64,000 nt of DNA from Bdellovibrionales bacterium (lineage in GTDB: Bacteria > Bdellovibrionota > UBA1018): positions 124,001 through 188,000 of the forward strand of contig JAEUWC010000020.1 of the NCBI GenBank assembly GCA_016786465.1, read 5' to 3'. The notes beneath the pieces were generated by a model. It ran no database searches, was not told where the DNA came from, and saw only the letters and a list, made by a program, of their open reading frames with translations. This document shows positions 1-12,765 of this stretch, one piece after another (position 1 is the stretch's first letter; each line of letters begins with the position of its first letter). Both the position numbers and the translations under genes were made by a program.

Positions 1-684
1 GCGGAAATGAATTCGGTTTGCGAACGGTATCCCGGAAAAATGGCCGCCGTGATGATTGAACTGGTTCAGGGTGAAGGGGGATTCAATTTTGCTCCACGCG
101 AATGGTACGTGGGGCTTTTTGAAAACGCCAAGAAGCACGGTCTAGCGATTTGGGCCGACGAAATTCAAACCTTTGCCCGTACCGGAGAACTTTTCGCATT
201 CGAGAAGTTTGACCTTGGAAATTACATCGACGTTGCGACTGTCGCCAAAGCGCTTCAAGCCAGTGCAGTGCTTTTTCGTCCCGAATACAACCCGCGCGCC
301 GGGCTTATCGCGGGAACCTTTACGGGAAGCATCACGGCACTTCGATCGGGCCGTCGCGTTTTGGAAATGCTGACCCAGGACGGTTATCTTGGAGAAAACG
401 GAAAGATTCAGAAGCTTTCGCGTGTCTTTGAATCCAAGCTGCGATCACTTCAGGAAAGAAAAAAGATTTCCGAAGTTCGCGTGATTGGATCGATGATTGC
501 GTTTCAACCGGGGCAAGGGACCATGGATCAGGTTAAGGCCTTGCTATTTAAACTGTATGAACGCGGGGTGGTCGCTTTTTACTGCGGCCATGATCCGTAT
601 CTGGTTCGGATGCTTCCTCCGTTTGGAGTCATGACCGAAGACCAGGTTCATCAAGTCTGCTCAATCGTGGAAGAGTGCCTATGA
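1..684 (+). CDS. Class III PLP aminotransferase (ArgD/AstC type), 5' end outside window
   Basis: C-terminal part of a fold-type I aminotransferase of the acetylornithine/succinylornithine family; the frame is open to base 1, so the start lies upstream. Visible family motifs are IELVQGEGG, the cofactor-binding WADEIQ with ARTG after it, the PLP-lysine segment VAKALQ, and GTFTGS in place of the usual GxTYGGNP. The PLP lysine and the aspartate that contacts the pyridine nitrogen are both present, so the enzyme looks active. The stop codon overlaps the next start (ATGA), followed by ArgE-like, AstA and AstD-like genes, which makes succinylornithine or acetylornithine the likely substrate. Family is secure; substrate is inferred from neighbours. 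Confidence 0.85.
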   Translation, partial: AEMNSVCERYPGKMAAVMIELVQGEGGFNFAPREWYVGLFENAKKHGLAIWADEIQTFARTGELFAFEKFDLGNYIDVATVAKALQASAVLFRPEYNPRAGLIAGTFTGSITALRSGRRVLEMLTQDGYLGENGKIQKLSRVFESKLRSLQERKKISEVRVIGSMIAFQPGQGTMDQVKALLFKLYERGVVAFYCGHDPYLVRMLPPFGVMTEDQVHQVCSIVEECL

Positions 685-2162
685 AACACCTGTTAGAAGA
701 CGCCAAAAGGTTAGTTCGCCTGAATTCAACCGCGAAGCACGGCAACGAAGAATTAGCCAATTTAATTCATGGAATGCTTCAAGATCGTGGAATCAAAAGT
801 CAGCTTCAGCTGGTCACGCATTCGCTGGAAGATGTTTCAAAGCGGCAATTCAACGTCATCGGCGTTTTGGGCGATCCACTGGTGGATCGGAAAATCCGCA
901 AGGGCCTTTTGCTGCTTAGCCACCTGGACACATTTCCGGCCGGCCTTTCAGAAAACTGGACCGAAACCGGGGGCGATCCTTTTGCTTTGACCGTGAAAGA
1001 CGGAAAAGTCTTTGGTCTTGGAACCGCTAGCGCGAAACTGGATTTTCTTTGCAAACTTCGCGTGATGGAAAAGTTTCGCGAAAAGAAGCTGAAAATGCCG
1101 ATTTACTTGGTGGGTACTTGCGGTCGCGAAGTGGGGATGCTGGGATCCCGCTACTTGATCAAGTCCTTAAGTCTGAACCCCAAGTATGTGATCGTCGGAG
1201 AACCGACGGATAACCGAATCATTCACGCCCACAAGTCACAGCTGATCTATCGGGTCAGTATCGGCTTCCACCAAGTGGAACGCGATTCAAAAGGTTTCAA
1301 TCGCCGCATTGACCTGCATTCTTTTGGGCGATCCGTTTGTGGAAGTTCACCCGAAAAGGGTGTCAATGCGATCGATCAGATGTTGGATTTCCTGGGCCGT
1401 GGAATTCAAAATGGGTTTGAATTTCGATTCACGACAGTCGAAGGCGGAGAATCTCCTTCACAGGTGCCTGATCGGGCGTTGGGCGAGTTTTACATGACCA
1501 CCCAACAGTTTGAAAATTTCAAACGCTTCTTCCGTGAATCCATTCGAATGGCAGGGAAAGAAAAAGCTTTTCGAGTCGAACTGGGCGGGCTTGGCGATTC
1601 GGGAATTCGATTCATTCCCGATTCCGTCTTTCGTGCAGTACTTGAAGTGCAAAGTTTCTTCAAAAAGACAGCGGAAGTCCTGGCGACGCGACACGACCCT
1701 AGTTTTGATCCCGGAATCAGCACCGTGAACTTAAGCCGAATCGAACCCTTTACTTCAGCGATTCAAATGACTTTCGATGTTCGGCTTTTGCCTGCGCAGG
1801 TTCAGTCCGAAGTACTTGCCCAAATCGAAGCAGGCGTTCAACAGATTGCTTCAAAGTATCCGTCGTTGAACATTCGCGGTACCTTGGACAAAAAAGTTTC
1901 GTCGCTCAGTCTTCCGTCTGAAAGTCAGTGGGTTCAAATCTGCCAAGAATCGTTGAAGGGTGCTGAAATTCCGCCGGTTATGAGCAAAAAATCAACGGCT
2001 TCAGAAGCCGCACTATTTCAAGAAGCCGGCTACGACGCGGTTTCGTTTGGTCCCGGAAGTTCGCAATCGGTTGCGGGTTCCCCCAATGAACACGGTCTTT
2101 TGACCCAAATCGAAAAGGCAGTTGCCTTCTATTCGGAACTGATCGAGCGCACCTGCCTATGA
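681..2162 (+). CDS. M20 (ArgE/DapE-like) metallopeptidase homologue, active site degenerate
   Basis: A 493-residue relative of acetylornithine deacetylase. The start is taken as the ATG in an ATGA overlap with the aminotransferase stop, with GGAAGAG upstream, rather than the GTG two codons earlier. SHLDT (H81, D83), YGLGT-like FGLGT, GEPT (E174) and GVNAI show the fold. Aligned by eye to ArgE, the bridging aspartate of GTADMK is serine (S117), the base glutamate of DEE is arginine (GRE 148-150), the lid-domain GHSS histidine is absent, and the C-terminal ligand histidine (AHxPDE) is glycine (G466, in AGSPNE). Two-metal hydrolysis therefore looks impossible. It may be a structural or regulatory partner in the AST-like operon, or may use another chemistry. 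Confidence 0.8.
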   Translation: MKHLLEDAKRLVRLNSTAKHGNEELANLIHGMLQDRGIKSQLQLVTHSLEDVSKRQFNVIGVLGDPLVDRKIRKGLLLLSHLDTFPAGLSENWTETGGDPFALTVKDGKVFGLGTASAKLDFLCKLRVMEKFREKKLKMPIYLVGTCGREVGMLGSRYLIKSLSLNPKYVIVGEPTDNRIIHAHKSQLIYRVSIGFHQVERDSKGFNRRIDLHSFGRSVCGSSPEKGVNAIDQMLDFLGRGIQNGFEFRFTTVEGGESPSQVPDRALGEFYMTTQQFENFKRFFRESIRMAGKEKAFRVELGGLGDSGIRFIPDSVFRAVLEVQSFFKKTAEVLATRHDPSFDPGISTVNLSRIEPFTSAIQMTFDVRLLPAQVQSEVLAQIEAGVQQIASKYPSLNIRGTLDKKVSSLSLPSESQWVQICQESLKGAEIPPVMSKKSTASEAALFQEAGYDAVSFGPGSSQSVAGSPNEHGLLTQIEKAVAFYSELIERTCL

Positions 2163-3235
2163 TCCTTCTTCGCGAAGCCCGGGCTCGCGACCTGGATGCA
2201 TTCGAAAGGCTGGGTCAGATTCCCGGAATGTTGAACCTTTCGGGTGATCGCGACCAGATTTCACTGCGCCTTGAAAGGGCCGAAAAGTCGTTTCGCGGAA
2301 AAATTTCAAAGAAGGCGAACAGAAAATACATCTTTGTTGCAGAAGATCTTGAAACTAAGAAAGTCGTCGGAACTTCCCTGATCGCGCCCCAGCACGGCAC
2401 CCCGGAATCACCCCACTTTTACTTTGAAGTTGGAAGCGAACAGCGCTTTTCGCAAACGATCGGCACGGGTTTTATCCACGGGACTTTAGAACTGAAGTTC
2501 AATACCGATGGGCCTACCGAAATCGGCGGGTTGGCGGTTGACCTTGCTTCTAGAAACCATCCGGCGCGTGTGGGTCGGCAAATCAGCTTTGTACGATTTC
2601 TTTTCGCCGGGATTCACCGAACTTTTTTTAAGAATCAGGTCCTGGCTGAACTTCTTCCACCTCTGAATAAGAAGGGTCAGTCTCCGCTCTGGGAAGCTGT
2701 GGGAAGACGGTTTACCAATATGGATTATTTGGAAGCGGATCTTCTTTGTTCCAAGAACAAGGAATTTATTCTGTCACTTTTTCCGTCAGAAAAGATTTAC
2801 ACCACCTTTCTTCCCGCGGAAGCCCGAAACGCGATTGGCAAAGTCGGCAAGGATACCGAACCCGTGTTTCACATGCTCAAGAAGATCGGGTTTCGGTACG
2901 CCCATCACGTGGATCCGTTTGATGGGGGCCCGCACCTGATTGCCGACTTTGATCAAATCGCGCCCATTCAGGGGATTCGGAAAATTTCGCTCGACCTAAA
3001 GACATTCGATACAGCGGGTCCAATTGTGGCTTCTGGTTTGATCTGCCCGCAACCGGCTGCCAGGAATCCCCAAGAATTTAGGGCTATTCACGTCGACTTG
3101 GTGGGCAGTGATTCGTCCGGGTACAGAATTCACGCACTTCAGGGTGGGGCGTCCGACCTGAGCCAGGTGAAGGATCAGCTCGGTCTGTCGCACGGATCAA
3201 CCGTTTGCTTTATGCCGTATTATTCTGCGTCTTAA
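2159..3235 (+). CDS. astA: Arginine/ornithine N-succinyltransferase family protein
   Basis: A 358-residue protein of the AstA/AruF family, which transfers succinyl from succinyl-CoA to arginine as the first step of the AST catabolic pathway. The GNAT-like N-terminus (REARARDLDAFERL), the IGGLAVDLASR segment, RSPFWEAxGR-like SPLWEAVGRRF, and the C-terminal VDPFDGGPHLIAD match the family along its length. ATGA overlap with the preceding gene and 10 bp to the next shows tight translational coupling. AstB (succinylarginine dihydrolase) and a recognisable AstE are not in the window and may lie upstream. Because the flanking M20 and AstD-like products look inactive, the true acceptor should not be assumed to be arginine. 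Confidence 0.82.
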   Translation: MILLREARARDLDAFERLGQIPGMLNLSGDRDQISLRLERAEKSFRGKISKKANRKYIFVAEDLETKKVVGTSLIAPQHGTPESPHFYFEVGSEQRFSQTIGTGFIHGTLELKFNTDGPTEIGGLAVDLASRNHPARVGRQISFVRFLFAGIHRTFFKNQVLAELLPPLNKKGQSPLWEAVGRRFTNMDYLEADLLCSKNKEFILSLFPSEKIYTTFLPAEARNAIGKVGKDTEPVFHMLKKIGFRYAHHVDPFDGGPHLIADFDQIAPIQGIRKISLDLKTFDTAGPIVASGLICPQPAARNPQEFRAIHVDLVGSDSSGYRIHALQGGASDLSQVKDQLGLSHGSTVCFMPYYSAS

Positions 3236-3245
3236 GGGAGGGAAA

Positions 3246-4667
3246 ATGAATCTAGATCAGTTTCAGTTTCGTGGGTGCCTGATTGCCGGAAAGTTCGTTT
3301 TGCCGTCACAGCCCAATGGTTCCTGGAGTGTGCAGAATCCTTCTTTCCCCAATCGGCCTGGACCCAAGATCACCTACGAGTTCGGGCTGATTCCCGAAGC
3401 AGTTCGAGCGGCGCGAAGTGCCCAGCCCGGATGGGAAAAGACATCGCTTTCGGAAAGACTGAACTGGCTGAAAAAGTGGCAGAGTATCTTGGTCGAAAAA
3501 AAATCTGTCTTGGTTTCGGCGCTCATGGTGGAAACCGGAAAGCCTGCATGGGACGCGGAACTGGAACTTGACCGGTCGATCCAGCTTCTTTCACAGATTC
3601 CGATCAAGTTGGCTTCAACCGCGACGGGCGCACCGCTGGGTGTGCTGGCCGCAGTCACAGCATCGACCGAAGCATTGGAATCGGTGGTTTCGTTTCTTGC
3701 ATCGGCGCTCGTTACTGGAAATGCGGTGGTTCACAAGGCTTCTGAAAAAACCGTCATTCTAGCCCAGGTTATTGCCGAATCGATTTTGGAATCAGGTCTT
3801 CCGTCGGGTGTATGGAACCTGCTTCAGGGTGATCGTGAAACCGGAAGACGGCTTTGCGTCCACGAAAATATCGACGGGATCCTTTTCACGGGATCCTATG
3901 ATGTCTCGATCCGGATCAAACAGGATACCCTTCAGCAGCACTGGAAAAAGCTGATGCTTTATACGGGCGGCAAGAACACGATCCTTGCCTGGAAGGGCGC
4001 GGATCTGGAAAAAGCCGTCGAATGGACCATCGAATCCGCTTTTTCTTTCTGTGGCCAAGGAGCGTTTTCCGCATCAAGGGTGATCGTTCATGAAAGTATC
4101 GCTCAAGAATTTTTAGAAAAACTGCACCAGGCATCAAAAGCATTTCGAATTGGTCCTGCCGACGCTAATCCCTTCATGGGACCGATGATGGACCACGGAT
4201 CGGTCGACCGGTACATGAAGTTCTTAGGGGTTGCAGTTCGTGAAGGCGCCGAATTGGTCATGCGGGGTAAGGCCCTTGAGCTGGGAAAAGAGGGGGGCTT
4301 TTACGTCGCTCCATCCATCGCGTATTTGAAGGACAATTCGATTGAAGCGACGCGGAAGTCGATTTTTCAGCAGTCCGAAATGACATCGCCTTTCGTGACG
4401 TTGATTGAATCCGATGATCAGGATCACGCCATAGCGCTTGCGAATGCCACCCAGTTTGGTCTTTGTGCATCGCTTTTCAGTGACCCCATTGAAATGGAAA
4501 AGTGGGATCGCGAACTGGATTTTGGATTGATCCTAAAGAATCAGGCGACCACGCGTAGGAAAGGCACTGAAAGCGTGATTGGTCGGAAAAAAAGCGGAAA
4601 CCATCGCAAGGCGGGTCTGGGGCTATTGGAAGAATGTTGTTGGCCCGTAAGCGAATCAGGCGCCTGA
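3246..4667 (+). CDS. AstD-like aldehyde dehydrogenase homologue lacking catalytic residues
   Basis: A 473-residue aldehyde dehydrogenase superfamily member, closest to succinylglutamate-semialdehyde dehydrogenase: the C-terminal SGNHRK...CCWPV stretch is AstD-like. The start has a strong AAGGGAGGG Shine-Dalgarno. The NAD-binding lysine is kept (VVHKASE, K164). The three residues needed for chemistry are not: the oxyanion-hole asparagine of the YNFPGHL region is T141 (TASTEAL), the general-base glutamate of ELGG is Y239 (YTGGK), and the nucleophile of GQRCTC is A273 (GQGAFS). The frame is otherwise intact with no decay, so it seems to be a maintained pseudoenzyme, perhaps a scaffold or acyl-group binder. 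A bidirectional terminator follows. Confidence 0.82.
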   Translation: MNLDQFQFRGCLIAGKFVLPSQPNGSWSVQNPSFPNRPGPKITYEFGLIPEAVRAARSAQPGWEKTSLSERLNWLKKWQSILVEKKSVLVSALMVETGKPAWDAELELDRSIQLLSQIPIKLASTATGAPLGVLAAVTASTEALESVVSFLASALVTGNAVVHKASEKTVILAQVIAESILESGLPSGVWNLLQGDRETGRRLCVHENIDGILFTGSYDVSIRIKQDTLQQHWKKLMLYTGGKNTILAWKGADLEKAVEWTIESAFSFCGQGAFSASRVIVHESIAQEFLEKLHQASKAFRIGPADANPFMGPMMDHGSVDRYMKFLGVAVREGAELVMRGKALELGKEGGFYVAPSIAYLKDNSIEATRKSIFQQSEMTSPFVTLIESDDQDHAIALANATQFGLCASLFSDPIEMEKWDRELDFGLILKNQATTRRKGTESVIGRKKSGNHRKAGLGLLEECCWPVSESGA

Positions 4668-5194: not shown

Positions 5195-6907
5195 TTACAT
5201 GACGAACTGGGGTCCGCCGTTGGTCAACGGAACCGTGGTGTTGATTCCGTAGTTACCACCGCTCCAAAGTGCTGATGGAGTCGTTGACGGATTGTAGAAC
5301 GATTGACCTTGAGCCTGGGTTGGTCTCCAGCCGCTGTTGAAAGTCACAGCACCTGGGTTCTGGGGGCCATTGTTGGTAAACATTGGGCTTTGTCCATAGC
5401 CGCCGCCGAAGTCCAAGCCGCCACCGAAATCCATTCCGCCGCCCATGTTCATCATGTAGCCGCCTTGCAATTCACGCCATTCTTCCAAGCGACGATTGTA
5501 TTCTTCGATCTGGCGCTGCTGACGAACGTACTGAGCTTGTTGCGGGATCTTGTAGCGAACGGTCTGAATCGCTTGCTTCGCCGTCATGCAAGCTTCCAAG
5601 CTTCCGGTCTTGCTGTTGCAGCTGTCCTTGCGCAAGTCCTGAAGGCGATCCAACACTTCGTTACGCTTTTCGCGGTAAACCGAGCGGTCTGATACACCGT
5701 CGGACGCAATCGCAAGAAGTTCGTTCATTTGAATTTCAGTGATGTTGTTTTCGAAGCGAAGTTTGTTTGCATCGCTGACACCATCAAATCCTTGCGCTTG
5801 GCGAATTGTTTCGATCGACTTGGCATAGGCGTCGTTGCCCAGTGCTTTGTCTTTCTGGTACTGCTGCGCAATTTTTTGGAAAACCACTGCGAAATCGTTG
5901 CCGGTCAAGCCTTCTGGCGACTTCATGCGAAGTTCTTCTAGTTCTTCGCGTAGAGCATCCAGTTCTCCGGAATCCATATCGTTAATTTTCTTGGCGTATG
6001 CCGCCAAAAGGTCTTTGTGGGCCTTCTTGACTTCTTCTTCAAGGTTTCCTTTGAATTCGTTCAAGTCTTTCAGAATGGTCAAGGCTTCCAAAGCAACTTT
6101 CATTTCGTCGACGTTCTTACGGCATTCCTTGAATTGCTTATTCAAGGCTTTGACGTAGTTTTCGTGATCGCGGGTTTCAATAATCTTGCTTCCGACGTGG
6201 ACGATTTCGCCACGGCCAGGAATATCGTGGAACCGAGCCGCGTTGGCAGGTTGAGCAGGATCAACTGATTCGATTCCCAGGTTGATCAATGCGTTTTCGT
6301 TCAAAGAAATCAGGTTTCCTTCGCGAGCCGCATCGTTCAATTGGCTATAGGTTTCCGTCCCGAAGCTGCAAGCTTGGGTCACGTTCAAATTAGCGCCGCA
6401 AGCCGCGATCTTGTCCTTTTGTTCCTTCACGCAGGCCAAGCCACCGCCAAGGTCGACCACGCGAACGCCGTGGTAGGCCTTACCGTTGGTTCCGGTTCCA
6501 GGGGAAGTCGATTGAACCAATTTGAATTTTGCGTCGCAAGCTTTGAAAGAAACGCCGTAAACGCGGTAATTGTTTCCTTCGCGAACCAGATCGAAACCCT
6601 TGAAGGTATCGACCACTTCGGCTGCAGTTAAGTCGCGCGAAACCGTGCTCACACCATAAAGGCGATCGTAGGTGGCTTTGTGGCGGGCCAACTTTGGATA
6701 GTCGACATCCAATCGAGCCTTCGCGTCTTTACATTCTTTGGTTTTGGCATTGCCGCACTTTGCGACCGTCTTTTCGTCGCGTGCGATTCGCCATTCGGCG
6801 TTTCCGATCCAGGACTTCAGATCGGCTTCACTGGGTTGCGTCTGAGCGAGTGCGGACATCGGAAAAGCCGCTGCTACGATCAAGAAAACAAGTTGGTTCT
6901 TTGCCAT
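5195..6907 (-). CDS. Secreted coiled-coil protein of unknown function
   Basis: I do not recognise this 570-residue protein. The start chosen is MAKNQLVFLI, with GAGGAG six bases upstream, which gives a clear signal peptide ending ALAQ; an upstream in-frame ATG would bury it. Residues about 20-250 carry scattered cysteines (KCGNAK, KECKD, KACDAK, AACGAN, QACSF) that could form disulfides in the periplasm. About 270-480 is charged and helical, probably coiled coil (EELEELR, EEYNRRLEEW). The last about 90 residues are low complexity, rich in Gly, Met, Asn and Tyr (MGGGMDFGGG). It stands alone, with its own terminator and a sigma-54-like promoter. An envelope or surface structural role is conceivable, but nothing shows it. 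Confidence 0.8.
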   Translation of the reverse strand: MAKNQLVFLIVAAAFPMSALAQTQPSEADLKSWIGNAEWRIARDEKTVAKCGNAKTKECKDAKARLDVDYPKLARHKATYDRLYGVSTVSRDLTAAEVVDTFKGFDLVREGNNYRVYGVSFKACDAKFKLVQSTSPGTGTNGKAYHGVRVVDLGGGLACVKEQKDKIAACGANLNVTQACSFGTETYSQLNDAAREGNLISLNENALINLGIESVDPAQPANAARFHDIPGRGEIVHVGSKIIETRDHENYVKALNKQFKECRKNVDEMKVALEALTILKDLNEFKGNLEEEVKKAHKDLLAAYAKKINDMDSGELDALREELEELRMKSPEGLTGNDFAVVFQKIAQQYQKDKALGNDAYAKSIETIRQAQGFDGVSDANKLRFENNITEIQMNELLAIASDGVSDRSVYREKRNEVLDRLQDLRKDSCNSKTGSLEACMTAKQAIQTVRYKIPQQAQYVRQQRQIEEYNRRLEEWRELQGGYMMNMGGGMDFGGGLDFGGGYGQSPMFTNNGPQNPGAVTFNSGWRPTQAQGQSFYNPSTTPSALWSGGNYGINTTVPLTNGGPQFVM

Positions 6908-6948
6908 AAAATACTCCTCGGTCTTTGAATCTCTCTTCACCCCAATAG

Positions 6949-7116: not shown

Positions 7117-8160
7117 ATGAACTCTTTTCGCCCAGCAGACCCGTTTGGCCTGACCCGCGTGATTGAACCCAAAGGGGTACTTCCGCAGCAGGCTCAATCG
7201 ATTGATCCGACGCTGCCCCTTGCCGAGGATGAACTTCAGATTTCCGTCGAAAGCCTGAATATTGATTCAGCAAGCTTTCATCAGATTTCGAAAGCCTGTG
7301 ATGGAAACCTGGATGCGATCGAAAAGCACATCCTGAATTTGGTGAAGACCCGGGGTAAGCAGCACAATCCGGTCACGGGGTCGGGCGGTATGCTGATTGG
7401 AACGGTCGAAAAGATCGGACCCAAGTTTCCCATTCAGACCAAGCCGGTTTCAGTTGGCGATCGGATCGCGACCTTGGTTTCTCTTTCGTTGACCCCGCTT
7501 TTGATTGAAAAGATTACCGCCATTCACCCCAAGATCGATCGCGTGGATGTAAAGGCCAAAGCGATCTTGTTCGCCTCTGGGCTTTTTGCACGACTGCCCA
7601 AAGACCTTCCCGAAACGGTTTCGCTGGCAGTCTTGGATGTCGCAGGCGCGCCTGCGCAGACACGGCAGCTGGTTCAGCCCGGAAATACGGTTTTGATCAT
7701 TGGGGGCGGAGGAAAATCCGGTTTGCTGTGCGCTTACGAAGCTAAGAAAAAGCCAGGAACGCGGGTTTTGGCCATAGAATATTCGGCAGCCGCAGTAGAA
7801 AGAACCAAGGGGCTGCCATTTTTTGATGACGTCATTCAAGCCGACGCGCGAAATGCGGTCGAAGTCATGCAAAAAGTTTCGGCTGCAACGGGCGGCCGAA
7901 TGGCCGATCTGGTGATCAACGTTGCAAACGTTCCCGAAACGGAAATGGCCAGCATCCTGGCCTGCCGTGCAAAAGGGATCGTCTACTTTTTCAGCATGGC
8001 TACCCATTTTACGCGCGCGGCCCTGGGTGCCGAAGGCGTAGGGGCGGATATCGATTTAAGAATTGGCAACGGATACACCGAAGGCCACGCGGACTTGGCG
8101 CTTTCGTTGATTCGCGAAAGCAAAGAACTTCAGAAGATTTTCACCGAAACGTATTGCTAA
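7117..8160 (+). CDS. kdd: L-erythro-3,5-diaminohexanoate dehydrogenase
   Basis: A 347-residue NAD(P)-dependent dehydrogenase that oxidises 3,5-diaminohexanoate to 5-amino-3-oxohexanoate in lysine fermentation. The N-terminal RVIEPKGVLPQQA, the GTRGKQHNPVTGSGGMLIG-like stretch, and a Rossmann glycine motif (IIGGGGKSG) fit Kdd, and the length is typical. It opens an operon with kamD (10 bp gap) and kamE, the enzymes that make its substrate. The other pathway genes (kamA, kce, kal) are not in the window. The 209-base upstream gap to the divergent secreted-protein gene should hold its promoter, but no clear sigma-70 site is visible. Confident call. Confidence 0.92.
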   Translation: MNSFRPADPFGLTRVIEPKGVLPQQAQSIDPTLPLAEDELQISVESLNIDSASFHQISKACDGNLDAIEKHILNLVKTRGKQHNPVTGSGGMLIGTVEKIGPKFPIQTKPVSVGDRIATLVSLSLTPLLIEKITAIHPKIDRVDVKAKAILFASGLFARLPKDLPETVSLAVLDVAGAPAQTRQLVQPGNTVLIIGGGGKSGLLCAYEAKKKPGTRVLAIEYSAAAVERTKGLPFFDDVIQADARNAVEVMQKVSAATGGRMADLVINVANVPETEMASILACRAKGIVYFFSMATHFTRAALGAEGVGADIDLRIGNGYTEGHADLALSLIRESKELQKIFTETYC

Positions 8161-8170
8161 GGGGAATTCC

Positions 8171-9739
8171 ATGGCCAGCCTGACATCCATCAAGAAGGAA
8201 GACGTCGCTCACTGCCGGAAAATGGCGCAGGACATTTCGAAACCGGTCGAAGAAATGATTCATTCGCACACCACCGTTGCGATCGAACGGGCGACCCTGC
8301 GCCTTTTGGGCGTCAATGGCGCCATCCAGCGTGGAGGTCAATGGTACCCTGAAGCCAATGCCATCATCGATGCCCTTCACAAAGAAAAGGCCCTAGGAAA
8401 AGGTGTTTTGCATTGGTTTGTGAATGGCATGATTCAAAAAAAGATGCCGGCGCGAGAACTTGGGGCGCTGGTTGCGTCGGGAAAAATCGATCTGACAAAA
8501 CTTCCGCGCGCACCCGAAGCAGAAGTCGCCGCGAAAGCAAAACAGCTTTGTATTCAAGCCAAGGATTTTCTTCTATCGCAACGTGAATTTCGGGACGGAA
8601 TTCGTCGGGAAACAAATGACCCATTTGATCCGGAAGGCAAGAACGGACCTTTGCTTTATGTCATTGTCGCCACCGGAAATATTTACGACGACGTGATTCA
8701 GGCCAAGGCGGCAGCTCAAGCGGGCGCGGATGCGATTGCCGTGATTCGAAGCACCGCCCAGTCTCTTTTGGATTACGTCCCACACGGGGCGACGACCGAA
8801 GGATTCGGCGGGACCTACGCTACTCAAGAAAATTTTCGCATCATGCGCGAAGCGCTGGATGAAGAAAGCAAGAAGCTGGGACGTTACATTCGCCTGACGA
8901 ACTATTGTTCCGGTCTTTGCATGCCGGAAATCGCGGCACTGGGCGCGATGGAACGGCTGGATTTCCTTTTGAACGACGCGATGTACGGGATTCTTTTCCG
9001 TGACATCAATATGAAGCGCACGCTGATCGATCAGCATTTTTCCAGACGAATTATCGCGGTTTCCAGGATTGTCATTCACACCGGTGAAGACAACTACCTG
9101 ACCACGGCGGATGCGATTGAAAACGGGCATCAGGTATTGGCTTCACAGTTCATCAACGAACGTTTTGCGCTTAACGCAAAGATGACGGAAGACCTGATGG
9201 GTCTGGGGCATGCGCAAGAAATGAATCCTGAACACCCCAACGTGTTTCTGCTGGAAATCGCGCGCGCGCAAATGACCCGCGATATTTTTCCAAAAGCCCC
9301 GATTAAGTTCATGCCCCCGACGCGCCACAAGTGCGGGGACATCTTTTACAGTCACCTGATGGACGCTATGTTTAATTTCGTAGGTGTTTTGACCGGGCAG
9401 ACCATTCAGCTTTTGGGAATGGCGACGGAAGCCATGCATACTCCACTTTTACAAGACCGCTGGATGAGCATTAAGAACGCAAAATACATCTTCAACGGAG
9501 CGAAAGACCTGGGTCGCGACATCACCTATCGACCCGGGGGCCAGATTGAAGCCTGGGGTGCAAAAGTCATGAAGGACACTGTGGATCATCTAGAAATGAT
9601 CCACAAAAAGGGCATGTTCAAGGCGATTGAAGAACGCGCCTTTGCCGAAGTTTCGCGCACGGAAAAAGGCGGAAAGGGCTTTGATGGTGTTATGCTTCGC
9701 GATCCGGCCTACTTGAACCCATTCTTCGAGATTTTATGA
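8171..9739 (+). CDS. kamD: Lysine 5,6-aminomutase alpha subunit
   Basis: A 522-residue catalytic subunit of the adenosylcobalamin- and PLP-dependent lysine 5,6-aminomutase, which moves the terminal amino group of beta-lysine (or D-lysine) to carbon 5. TEGFGGTYATQENF, TNYCSGLCMPE, and ITYRPGGQIEAWG are family signatures and the length matches characterised enzymes. The start ATG follows AAGGGG. It overlaps kamE by ATGA, so the subunits are translationally coupled in the expected 1:1 manner. This type of mutase is inactivated by substrate-induced damage to the cofactor and usually depends on a reactivating factor; the genes downstream may supply one. Confidence 0.95.
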   Translation: MASLTSIKKEDVAHCRKMAQDISKPVEEMIHSHTTVAIERATLRLLGVNGAIQRGGQWYPEANAIIDALHKEKALGKGVLHWFVNGMIQKKMPARELGALVASGKIDLTKLPRAPEAEVAAKAKQLCIQAKDFLLSQREFRDGIRRETNDPFDPEGKNGPLLYVIVATGNIYDDVIQAKAAAQAGADAIAVIRSTAQSLLDYVPHGATTEGFGGTYATQENFRIMREALDEESKKLGRYIRLTNYCSGLCMPEIAALGAMERLDFLLNDAMYGILFRDINMKRTLIDQHFSRRIIAVSRIVIHTGEDNYLTTADAIENGHQVLASQFINERFALNAKMTEDLMGLGHAQEMNPEHPNVFLLEIARAQMTRDIFPKAPIKFMPPTRHKCGDIFYSHLMDAMFNFVGVLTGQTIQLLGMATEAMHTPLLQDRWMSIKNAKYIFNGAKDLGRDITYRPGGQIEAWGAKVMKDTVDHLEMIHKKGMFKAIEERAFAEVSRTEKGGKGFDGVMLRDPAYLNPFFEIL

Positions 9740-10617
9740 ATCAACCCGGACCAAAACAAGTCAACCTAAAGAAGCTGAAGCCTTACGGCGACATCATGGA
9801 CGATGGAACGATCCAGATCTGTTTCACGCTTCCCGTCGAACCATCCCCTGAAGCGAAAGAAGCCGCGATTCGATTTTGCGAAAAAATGGGGTTGGACCAA
9901 ATCAAGGTCGCGACCATGGAGAAGGCGGCCGATGGCTTTGCCCTTTTTGTGATCTACGCCAATTTGCGCGTTACCGTTGATTTTACAGAAATCAAAGTGG
10001 TGAAGATCGAATCCAAAAAGCGTTCACGCGAAGAAATCGACGAAATCATCAAAGAAAAGATCGGTCGAAAGCTAGTCGTCTTGGGGGCGTGCACGGGATA
10101 CGACGCTCATACGGTCGGAATCGACGCGATCATGAATATGAAGGGGTTTGCGGGCGATTACGGCCTGGAACGTTATCAATGGTTGGATGCTCGGAATTTG
10201 GGTGCTCAGGTTTTGAACGAAGACCTTCTTCAGTTAGCGCTTCGTGAAAAGGCAGACGCCGTTTTGATTTCAAAAGTCGTTACCCAGCACAACATTCATG
10301 TGAAGGACCTGAAGGACTTTGTTCGTCGCGCAGACCAGTTGGGTGTGAAGGATCGACTGATTTTGGTGGCGGGTGGCCCCAGGGTGACCCACCCGATGGC
10401 CTTGGAATGTGGATTCGACGCTGGATTCGGTGTTGGAACCAAGCCTTCGGACGTCGCCAGCTACATTGTCGAAGAATTTTTGAAACGCCGCGATCAGCAG
10501 GCAGCGGAAACTGGTGAAAAGAAGGTTTCTCAAGTAAGCTTGAAAGCAAAAGCTAAACGCAAAAATGCCAAAAAACCAAAAGCCAAAGCAAAAACCAGCG
10601 CCAAGAAAAGGAAGTAA
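9736..10617 (+). CDS. kamE: Lysine 5,6-aminomutase beta subunit with B12 domain and Lys-rich tail
   Basis: The 293-residue beta subunit carries the cobalamin-binding Rossmann domain. The base-off motif DAHTVG gives the cobalt ligand H125 and G128, and K136 in NMKG is the lysine that forms the PLP aldimine in the known structure. GGPRVTH and FGVGTKPSDVA end the conserved part near residue 250. Beyond that is a tail of about 40 residues rich in Lys and Ala (AKAKRKNAKK), longer than usual for the family. The DNA of this tail also encodes the N-terminus of the next gene in another frame (53-bp overlap). Function is secure; the tail's role is unknown. Confidence 0.94.
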   Translation: MNQPGPKQVNLKKLKPYGDIMDDGTIQICFTLPVEPSPEAKEAAIRFCEKMGLDQIKVATMEKAADGFALFVIYANLRVTVDFTEIKVVKIESKKRSREEIDEIIKEKIGRKLVVLGACTGYDAHTVGIDAIMNMKGFAGDYGLERYQWLDARNLGAQVLNEDLLQLALREKADAVLISKVVTQHNIHVKDLKDFVRRADQLGVKDRLILVAGGPRVTHPMALECGFDAGFGVGTKPSDVASYIVEEFLKRRDQQAAETGEKKVSQVSLKAKAKRKNAKKPKAKAKTSAKKRK

Positions 10618-11497
10618 GACTTCCTTCGTCGGTCGCGCGAACGAAAAGGAACAGATTCTGGCTTGCCTTCAAGCGGGAAGAAACGTCCTTTTGGAAGGGC
10701 CCGTGGGCGCCGGAAAAACCACTTTGGCGCTTTCGGTGGTTCAAGAATTGGGGCGCCCTAGTTTTCGAATCGATGGCGACAATCGATTTAATGAACAAAA
10801 ACTGACCGGGCTTTTTGACCCTCCCGCGGTTTTAAAAAAGGGTTATCAGTGGTCGACCTTCTTAGCGGGTCCCCTGGTTGAAGCCATGCAAAAGGGCGGG
10901 GTCCTTTTCATCAACGAATTGAACCGTCTTCCCGAAGGCGTTCAAAACGTCCTATTGCCCGCGATTGATGAAAAGAAAATCGTGATTCCAAGGCTTGGAG
11001 AAATCACCGCGCGTGAGGGGTTCACCGTCGTTGCGACCCAGAATCCAAAAGAATTCGTCGCGACGTCACATTTAAGTGAAGCGATCCTGGATCGCTTCGA
11101 ATTGGTGGTGATCGATTACCAGTCAGAAGCCGAAGAAAAGCAGATCGTTGCCGGTGCGCTGGAAGCTTTAGACCTACCGCCGGATAGCGGTTTAGTTCAG
11201 GCTTCGGTCACTTTGGCGCGATTAACGCGTGGGCATCCGCAGATTCGCCGTGGCGCTTCGGTTCGCGCGGCACTTGCAGTGGCTGAAATCGCTGCCGTTT
11301 TGAAAAAAACTGGTAAACCCCTGGCAGAAGCTTTCACTACAGCCGCCGTTTTGGCGCTTCCGACCCGAATTGAAATGGAACGCGACGCCGAAGCCGAAGG
11401 CGGTGAAGGCGCGAACCTAAAGAAGCTGATTTCAGAACTGACCGAAAAAGCACTTGCGGGTTCGGGTTCGGGTTCGGGCGAAAAAAAAAAGATCTAG
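10565..11497 (+). CDS. MoxR-family AAA+ ATPase in lysine aminomutase operon
   Basis: A 310-residue AAA+ ATPase of the MoxR class. Walker A is GPVGAGKT (45-52); the Walker B is VLFINE (113-118), with Asn where Asp is common; TQNP is sensor 1-like. MoxR ATPases work with VWA proteins to remodel or metal-load enzymes (known pairs: CbbQ/CbbO, NorQ/NorD, RavA/ViaA, CobS/CobT). It starts inside kamE and has no Shine-Dalgarno of its own, so it is probably coupled to kamE. The C-terminus is a (GS)n linker and EKKK just before a TAG. The VWA partner follows in the -1 frame past a slippery A tract. Likely job, by inference: reactivation of KamDE. Confidence 0.88.
   Translation: MPKNQKPKQKPAPRKGSKTSFVGRANEKEQILACLQAGRNVLLEGPVGAGKTTLALSVVQELGRPSFRIDGDNRFNEQKLTGLFDPPAVLKKGYQWSTFLAGPLVEAMQKGGVLFINELNRLPEGVQNVLLPAIDEKKIVIPRLGEITAREGFTVVATQNPKEFVATSHLSEAILDRFELVVIDYQSEAEEKQIVAGALEALDLPPDSGLVQASVTLARLTRGHPQIRRGASVRAALAVAEIAAVLKKTGKPLAEAFTTAAVLALPTRIEMERDAEAEGGEGANLKKLISELTEKALAGSGSGSGEKKKI
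11485..11491 (+). promoter_or_regulatory. Putative -1 frameshift site, heptamer A AAA AAG
   Basis: In the MoxR frame the codons run GAA AAA AAA AAG ATC TAG, giving the canonical slippery heptamer A AAA AAG inside an A10 run (11481-11490), 3 bases before the MoxR stop. A small GC stem (CGCC 11498-11501 with GGCG 11508-11511) begins 6 bases downstream. A -1 slip enters a frame open to the end of the VWA gene and yields a fusion of about 657 residues. RNA polymerase slippage adding one A, or a miscounted homopolymer, would give the same product. Confidence 0.6.
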
Positions 11498-11646
11498 CGC
11501 CTGAAGGGGCGGCACCACAGGACCTAAAGAAAGCGCCGACCAGCGGCATTCGTGAACGCTTTCGAAGTCTTTTTTCCGGTAAAGATTCGCAAAAGAACAC
11601 CAGCACCGTTTTTCTTCCGCCTGAAGCTTTTCAGTCGGGCGCAGAA

Positions 11647-12537
11647 ATGGCGGACGAAGAACAAGGTTTTGATCTGGCTTCCGCCAGCAGCTGGGACGTA
11701 GCGACCCGCTATCACGATTTTAAGTCCAGGCCCGGATTCGCCCATTTGACCAAGCAATTGCGCCAGATTTCAGCGCACGCAGTACTAAAGCGCGCGGAAG
11801 CGGTTCTGGGGTCTGTGGTCCACCCTGTTCTTCAAGGATCGGGAACCTTGGATGCGATTCCCAAGGACGCCACGCAAGTTGAAATCGATTTGGATGAAAC
11901 CCTTCAAAATTCAATTCTTGGATTTCGAAATGCGGACCGGTCGGGGTTTTCTACGCGCGATATCTATGTGGAATTTTCGACCCCAAGAAAAAAGCCCCTG
12001 ATTCTGACCGTCGATACCAGCCTTTCAATGACTGGCGAAAAGCTTGCGATCACGGCCGTTGCCCTTGCCGTCGTCCTTTTGCAGTTTCCCGAAGACCCAC
12101 TTGGGATCATCGCATTTGAAAACGTGGCGCGCGTTCTTAAGCGTCCGGATGAAGTGATTTCAGTGGCTGAATTGGTGGAAAGATTCTTAGACGTACCTGC
12201 GCAAGGTTACACGCACCTGGAAGACGGGATGCGAGGGGCCCTGAAGCTGATGCAGAAGTCGGGGCGCAGGTCGGGTCAGGGAATGCCGCGAAATATTTCA
12301 ACTGTATTGGTTACGGATGGCAAGTACACGGCTGGGCGCGATCCGGCCTATTTGGCGCCCCGTTTTCCACACTTGGTGGTCATGAAGATGGGGCGCGAGA
12401 AAGCCAGCTTACAGCTTTGTCGCGATTTGGCGCGACTGGGACGGGGTTCGCTGCGTCAGGTGCCTGAACTTGAAGCGCTGCCGGCGGTCATGTACGGGGT
12501 CGTTAAGGATATTCTGCGGGGTAGGGCTCAGACTTGA
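11647..12537 (+). CDS. VWA-domain protein, partner of MoxR; probably made as a fusion
   Basis: From the first ATG this is 296 residues ending in a von Willebrand A domain with a full MIDAS: DTSLSM (D123, S125, S127), the threonine of GYTHLEDG, and VTDG. The ATG has no convincing Shine-Dalgarno. The frame is open upstream to 11407 with normal codon use and no ATG, GTG or TTG start in between, so the real N-terminus most likely comes from a -1 shift out of the MoxR gene at 11485-11491. That would give a MoxR-linker-VWA polypeptide alongside free MoxR. VWA partners recruit the target enzyme through MIDAS-bound metal; here KamDE is the obvious candidate. Confidence 0.85.
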   Translation: MADEEQGFDLASASSWDVATRYHDFKSRPGFAHLTKQLRQISAHAVLKRAEAVLGSVVHPVLQGSGTLDAIPKDATQVEIDLDETLQNSILGFRNADRSGFSTRDIYVEFSTPRKKPLILTVDTSLSMTGEKLAITAVALAVVLLQFPEDPLGIIAFENVARVLKRPDEVISVAELVERFLDVPAQGYTHLEDGMRGALKLMQKSGRRSGQGMPRNISTVLVTDGKYTAGRDPAYLAPRFPHLVVMKMGREKASLQLCRDLARLGRGSLRQVPELEALPAVMYGVVKDILRGRAQT

Positions 12538-12576: not shown

Positions 12577-12765
12577 ATGAGAGACGATTATAAGATGAAA
12601 ACCGCGACCCAAAAGGTCAGCGTCGAAGTCGAACAAGAAGTGGCCAAGCTTTTGGCCTCGATGGAAAAATATTCTAAAATTTCGCAGTCCGAATTGGCAA
12701 ATACGGCGTTGAAGCGCTTCATTTCCCAGCACAAAGACTTCTTGCCGCCAGAAGACCGCAAGTAA
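12577..12765 (+). CDS. Small protein, possible ribbon-helix-helix
   Basis: A 62-residue protein of unknown function. AGGATGGG lies 7 bases before the ATG; a second ATG six codons on is also possible. The sequence TQKVSVEVEQEVAKLLASMEKYSKISQSELANTALKRFI has the pattern of a beta strand followed by two helices seen in CopG/Arc-type DNA-binding proteins, but no diagnostic residue settles it. It lies between the lysine operon and a convergent lipoprotein gene, with no toxin gene beside it. Coding status is likely from codon use and spacing. Confidence 0.6.
   Translation: MRDDYKMKTATQKVSVEVEQEVAKLLASMEKYSKISQSELANTALKRFISQHKDFLPPEDRK

Follow-up and report, generated by a model that had tools for sequence, protein, structure and literature searches.

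Recoded AAA+ genes and their relatives

The frameshifted chlD genes of bacteria and archaea, which encode magnesium/cobalt chelatase subunits, have an A-rich site between two domains: standard decoding delivers an AAA+ protein, and -1 recoding at this site delivers that protein joined to a VWA domain (PMC3711429, PMC9227772). In-frame fusions are found among their relatives. For dnaX, two solutions are known. E. coli combines the slippery heptamer A_AAA_AAG with a Shine-Dalgarno element and a hairpin, and Thermus exploits slippage on nine As (PMC5009743, PMC3711429); nine As or Ts are enough for efficient slippage by bacterial RNA polymerase (PMC5009743). Here, we discuss a pair of overlapping reading frames, moxR and a VWA frame, in 64,000 nucleotides of forward-strand DNA from a Bdellovibrionales bacterium (assembly GCA_016786465.1, contig JAEUWC010000020.1, positions 124,001 to 188,000; the whole stretch is called the window). 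Judged from sequence, mostly that of metagenome assemblies, this pair is very probably one recoded gene that delivers both MoxR and a MoxR-VWA fusion.

MoxR-type ATPases and VWA proteins are, of course, known as partners. Each such pair, NorQ/NorD for example, acts on one client enzyme and remodels it (PMC9976466, PMC13036017), with about one VWA partner for each ATPase hexamer (one NorD per NorQ hexamer; PMC9976466). CbbQ/CbbO and RavA/ViaA are built in the same way. In all of these, the partners come from separate genes. In the window, the VWA domain is predicted to be carried covalently by some of the ATPase subunits, as a consequence of recoding.

The frameshifted chlD genes are the closest precedent, in a different AAA+ family. 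Indeed, the layout of AAA+ domain, slippery site and VWA domain is so much the same (PMC9227772, PMC3711429) that one might view the locus as a plain member of that cobalt chelatase family. The scores make this highly improbable. The locus reaches 28.1 bits for TIGR02031 (BchD-ChlD), where the curated cut-off is 499.55, and 29.9 bits for TIGR02442 (putative cobaltochelatase), where it is 779.45. No protein in 20 related genomes passes the TIGR02442 cut-off, and a fused archaeal member scores 58.3 bits. The nearest solved relatives of the AAA+ profile are the AAA modules of midasin (E 1.2e-67), followed by MoxR 2r44 and NorQ. Membership was rejected on these scores. Two further differences are that some members of the present family are linked with the genes for lysine 5,6-aminomutase, and that many of its sites are runs of nine to eleven As without a hairpin. 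The difference from dnaX lies in the outcome: recoding there gives the shorter product, while recoding of moxR/VWA would give the longer, fused one.

Conserved cellular genes that use recoding are rare in prokaryotes, and moxR/VWA looks like another. The logic of its products is clear: an ATPase alone, and an ATPase with a targeting domain. A literature search of partial coverage found no report of recoding in MoxR/VWA genes. Recoding would also mean that annotation in many genomes splits the VWA part from moxR, or gives it the wrong start.

The probable frame change in the window

The moxR gene (10565-11497, + strand) encodes a 310-residue AAA+ ATPase by standard decoding, matching AAA_5 (74.5 bits) and AAA_3 (49.1 bits) above both Pfam cut-offs. 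Its Walker A and RRGASxRA motifs are invariant in an alignment of 23 relatives. The Walker B position, residues 117-118, reads N-E (FINELNR) rather than D-E, and neither residue varies among the 23 relatives.

The gene ends GAA AAA AAA AAG ATC TAG. These codons hold a run of ten As (11481-11490, + strand) that is kept in orthologues; taken together with its flanking sequence, it is unique in the genome assembly. The run contains an in-phase A_AAA_AAA (11482-11488) and, together with the G that follows, an in-phase A_AAA_AAG (11485-11491). The VWA frame lies at -1 relative to moxR, is open from 11407 to 12537, and has its earliest ATG, GTG or TTG at 11647, just 5' of which AGGA, GGAG and GAGG were looked for and not found. 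A preliminary description of this DNA had drawn attention to the sequence at the end of moxR, the open VWA frame, the late start codon without a Shine-Dalgarno element and the heptamer of the dnaX type; all of these were found again in the sequence.

Standard decoding would end at the TAG at 11495-11497. Some expression events are proposed to switch to the -1 frame at the A10 run, giving a fusion of about 655 residues with the junction ...GSGEKKK-DLAPEG.... This could happen in two ways. RNA polymerase may slip and add one A, generating A11 transcripts, or the ribosome may slip by -1 on A_AAA_AAG. Both routes would yield the identical fusion protein, and they may operate side by side. MoxR could then form mixed rings with a few fusion subunits, whose VWA domain and metal ion-dependent adhesion site (MIDAS) would be presented to a client; for NorQ, this is the task of NorD, a separate protein.

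Conservation of the frame and of the slippery site

Orthologues were collected from relatives and from one named genome collection, to give 102 loci after dereplication; coverage outside Bdellovibrionota comes from one scan, which yielded 80 loci. In 80 of the 102, moxR and VWA lie in separate frames. By script, 78 of these 80 have VWA at -1, and reading one further locus (L141) by eye brings the count to 79. For 79 of the 80 loci, an in-phase A_AAA_AAN is present no further than 45 nucleotides from the moxR stop, against 6 of 586 other open reading frames in the same DNA. The sole locus without it, from an actinobacterium (L149), carries the canonical heptamer C_CCA_AAA instead. The conserved A-run that the preliminary description had proposed to look for in orthologues is thus present, and its idea of MoxR made alongside a MoxR-VWA fusion gains support from both counts.

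The runs themselves are A6 (1 locus), A7 (11), A8 (1), A9 (40), A10 (25) and A11 (1), so that 66 of the 80 loci carry runs of nine to eleven As. No run of nine or more As was found within the last 48 nucleotides of the 586 other open reading frames in the fetched loci. Nor is the run a side effect of encoding lysine: elsewhere in these loci, three consecutive lysines start with AAA AAA in 7 of 90 cases, with AAG making up 52% of lysine codons. As a check, six more loci were taken in once the rule had been settled, and each shows an A9 or A10 run with VWA at -1. One of these, L165, sits on a contig equal in length to that of L144 and is probably the same locus, which leaves five new ones. The predicted pattern of recoding is shared by dozens of bacteria that are only distantly related, and by some archaea.

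Two assemblies in the set appear under unexpected names. The moxR genes of L129 (titled Klebsiella pneumoniae) and L090 (Lysobacteraceae) group with sequences from delta-proteobacteria and Bdellovibrionota, and these bins are probably mislabelled. The window's own genome holds a diverged second MoxR/VWA pair (L032, contig C13, moxR at 6004-6918), with an A9 run and VWA in the -1 frame.

Homopolymers are, of course, prone to error, and in-frame fusions are known from archaea and from another Bdellovibrionota locus. One might therefore suppose that the run really has one more A, and that the gene is a plain in-frame fusion. However, dozens of assemblies made independently, whose runs vary from 6 to 11 As, show the same state, and at the A7 and C_CCA_AAA sites there is no homopolymer of the error-prone kind. 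Single genomes may contain errors, yet these do not explain the pattern as a whole; as an account of this locus, assembly or sequencing error has a negligible probability. A10 tracts are hypermutable in some bacteria. This brings up a second idea, that the run is a contingency switch in the DNA itself, by which phase variation would make the fusion available in some cells and not in others. Such a switch predicts all three frames, but the -1 state is observed in 79 of 80 genomes. Further, none of the relatives has an A-run with the frames already joined; a simple in-frame fusion is what, by the preliminary description, would count against recoding. Phase variation is very improbable. Both ideas were set aside because the frame is uniform across loci.

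Access to the VWA domain

The VWA domain (11647-12537, + strand; VWA_2 33.9 bits, cut-off 27) has a complete MIDAS, with the DxSxS-T-D residues in DTSLS, GYT and TDG. Between it and the run lies a linker that exists in the -1 frame only (DLAPEG..., 11491-11646, + strand). AlphaFold predicts this linker mostly with low confidence. It includes the sequence FLPPEAF, which is conserved in close relatives.

If recoding is the route to the VWA domain, the frame should be reached through moxR. The alternative is that the VWA protein is made separately, from the ATG at 11647 or from a non-standard start, by translation coupled to termination of moxR. Some relatives do have a start codon within the linker. 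The VWA frame is nevertheless open across the slip site in 78 of 78 loci. Between the run and the earliest start codon, it stays open in every locus, with 0 stops in 2502 codons summed over the loci. In the stretch before the conserved tryptophan of the VWA domain, ATG is missing from 45 of 77 loci (27.7 were expected), and ATG, GTG and TTG are all missing from 17 of 77 (3.5 were expected). Any VWA start codon with a Shine-Dalgarno-like motif is found in only 7 of 77. FLPPEAF sits 5' of 11647, the first possible start, and separate translation leaves the A-run unexplained. No VWA start of its own is conserved in the orthologues; such a start would, by the preliminary description, have spoken against recoding.

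Two observations do weigh against recoding. First, the ATG at 11647 adjoins the 5' edge of the well-predicted VWA fold in the model. A protein started there would retain the predicted fold, and separate translation of VWA at this locus is for that reason called unlikely, and nothing firmer. As a general account of the gene pair it is improbable. Second, one locus (L054) has an A8 run with VWA in the +1 frame; this exception may be a homopolymer error. Recoding is very well supported all the same, since the -1 frame, the in-phase heptamer, the new loci and the in-frame fusions agree.

Ribosome or RNA polymerase

The preliminary description had proposed -1 recoding of the dnaX kind, aided by a small GC stem downstream of the run. 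Recoding at the A-run is supported. The ribosomal signal with its stem is not: the proposed stem folds like shuffled sequence (z = 0.11, with 101 of 200 shuffles folding as well), and no Shine-Dalgarno-like stimulator (AGGA, GGAG or GAGG) lies within 30 nucleotides 5' of the run. The window thus has the in-phase X_XXY_YYZ heptamer of the E. coli dnaX type without its stem-loop and stimulator, and, with A10, the homopolymer of about nine or more As or Ts that characterizes slippage of the Thermus dnaX type.

The family as a whole offers a natural experiment, with related genes that carry either a short slippery site and a hairpin or a nine-A run and no hairpin. The short sites (A6, A7 or C_CCA_AAA; n = 13) are followed by strong hairpins, with a mean minimum free energy of -24.7 and a mean z of -2.26, 11 of the 13 lying below -1. 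The sites with nine or more As (n = 65) show no hairpin signal (mean z +0.41). The two groups differ in z (Mann-Whitney p = 1.4e-6), in a test where related loci are not independent; short sites are also richer in GC, and z was taken against sequence windows of the same gene region. There are, in short, two kinds of site: short with a strong hairpin, or A9-A11 without one. One clade contains both, its A7 members having hairpins and its A9 members (L113, L137, L146) having weaker predicted structures. As general stimulators of the family, a downstream GC stem was rejected for the window and for the A9+ sites as a group, and a Shine-Dalgarno-like element proved weak and not general.

Individual loci resemble textbook ribosomal sites closely. 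L075 combines A6G, an upstream GGGAGG, which is striking here, and a hairpin, the layout of E. coli dnaX. A clade of seven loci (L100, L106, L112, L126, L131, L133, L147) reads GCA AAA AAA G, followed in most of them by a long GC hairpin that begins about 6 nucleotides after the heptamer; compensatory changes in this hairpin look likely.

The two kinds of site mirror the solutions found in E. coli and in Thermus dnaX. Two mechanisms within one family are the simplest reading, and polymerase slippage is at least as likely as ribosomal frameshifting here. The window, with A10 and neither hairpin nor Shine-Dalgarno element, in a family whose A9-A11 sites are free of hairpins, makes the polymerase an equal or better candidate. 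At this locus, then, the frame change would come about, by a modest preference, through slippage of RNA polymerase; the ribosome is given a little less than an even chance.

Against slippage by the polymerase stands the phase of the long runs. Of those with nine or more As, 46 of 66 end as in-phase A_AAA_AAG or A_AAA_AAC, many of them in related loci, and this keeps the ribosomal option open. A purely ribosomal account, in which -1 programmed frameshifting at A_AAA_AAG gives the same two products, can further point to the heptamer in phase in the window, to L075 and the A7 or C_CCA_AAA sites with their strong hairpins, and to analogous chlD sites, at which frameshifting in E. coli reaches as much as 63% (PMC3711429). 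It must contend with the missing stem and stimulator in the window, and with hairpin-free sites that nearly always have nine As or more, a length that RNA polymerase needs and the ribosome does not. This account is a serious contender, held with some doubt.

Natural fusions and structural relatives

About 15 relatives, L136 and L033 among them and otherwise mostly archaea, encode AAA and VWA in one frame of roughly 600-660 residues, without an A-run. Such relatives indicate that a MoxR-VWA fusion is a sensible protein. In L033, from Bdellovibrionota, MoxR and VWA are fused in a 660-residue open frame on the reverse strand, with a linker that keeps KKN and has no slippery run. A quick tree of the AAA+ domain needs at least ten changes among long run, short site and in-frame fusion, a rough count, since about half of the inner branches are weak. 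By state, fusion changes 4 times and the short site 6 times, again roughly and with no direction of change inferred.

AlphaFold models an archaeal fusion as two domains with a loose linker (predicted template modeling score 0.46); no arrangement of the domains is claimed from such a model. The VWA model from the window has a mean predicted local distance difference test score of 86. Its top Foldseek match is the VWA domain of NorD, with Rea1-MIDAS also among the top matches. Ranking against a structure library with VIA-align recovered the VWA fold at large and nothing more specific (Z about 20) and did not discriminate, NorD and Rea1 being absent from its 50 rows. In midasin (Rea1/Mdn1), a single chain likewise carries both AAA modules and a MIDAS/VWA domain. 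Midasin differs in that it serves ribosome assembly in eukaryotes, has six AAA modules per chain and involves no recoding, and its likeness is one of domain matches.

The link to lysine 5,6-aminomutase

Three genes on the + strand precede moxR. The first, kdd (7117-8160; NF052381, 253 bits, cut-off 200), encodes L-erythro-3,5-diaminohexanoate dehydrogenase of lysine fermentation and is the apparent first gene of a putative operon. It is followed by kamD (8171-9739; NF052384, 744 bits, cut-off 600) for the alpha subunit of lysine 5,6-aminomutase, by kamE (9736-10617; NF052385, 340 bits, cut-off 280) for the beta subunit with its B12-binding domain, and then by moxR and the VWA frame. The 3' end of kamE overlaps moxR by 53 nucleotides (10565-10617). 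Here, the two genes use different frames, and both encode lysine-rich tails.

This order is conserved. KamD occurs in 35 of 58 genomes of the class, and moxR follows kamE directly on the same contig in 31 of the 35. Two more have the start of moxR at the contig end (G029, G006), and in the last two the contig stops inside kamE (G034, G009). Hence, moxR follows kamE in 33 of the 33 genomes where the sequence continues.

Lysine 5,6-aminomutase undergoes suicide inactivation during turnover (PMC3958899). Clostridial-type lysine fermentation clusters include KamC (NF052383), by its family name an accessory ATPase of this enzyme. Its role in clostridial pathways is taken from the NCBIfam name, and it is not known to be related to AAA+ proteins. 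Across the 58 class genomes, no match to KamC was found at E <= 1e-60; the best in the window's own genome scores 166.9 bits against a cut-off of 300, inside a 1023-residue open frame. Because moxR follows kamDE, KamC was not found and the aminomutase inactivates itself, our best guess, only somewhat better than even, is that the MoxR/VWA pair acts as an ATP-driven chaperone that reactivates KamDE. If true, this would provide a testable candidate for what keeps B12 aminomutases active where KamC is missing.

Two points weigh against this role: the part played by KamC is read from a family name, and many family members lie away from kamDE, including the paralogue in the same genome. Other clients must therefore exist, and service to an aminomutase is not the role of the family as a whole. 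Scanned loci without a kam link share no neighbor function, their neighbors including a permease, a GMC oxidoreductase, a Glu/Leu dehydrogenase and a kinase, among others.

Taken jointly, these elements would describe a family of recoded AAA+-VWA remodelling ATPases in Bdellovibrionota, Myxococcota, Chloroflexi, other bacteria and some archaea. Such a family would set its subunit ratio in three ways (ribosomal frameshifting at a short site with a hairpin, polymerase slippage at A9-A11, or in-frame fusion), would have switched between them many times, and would supply the missing reactivating chaperone of KamDE in Bdellovibrionota. The combination is put forward tentatively, as a reading that may well fail in one of its parts.

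Other genes in the window

Directly 3' of the VWA frame, a 62-residue open reading frame (12577-12765), without an NCBIfam match, possibly encodes a small DNA-binding protein. Upstream of kdd, positions 675-4667 hold genes resembling those for an M20 deacylase, an arginine/ornithine N-succinyltransferase and a succinylglutamate-semialdehyde dehydrogenase; all score below curated cut-offs, and together they suggest a cluster for arginine or ornithine catabolism.

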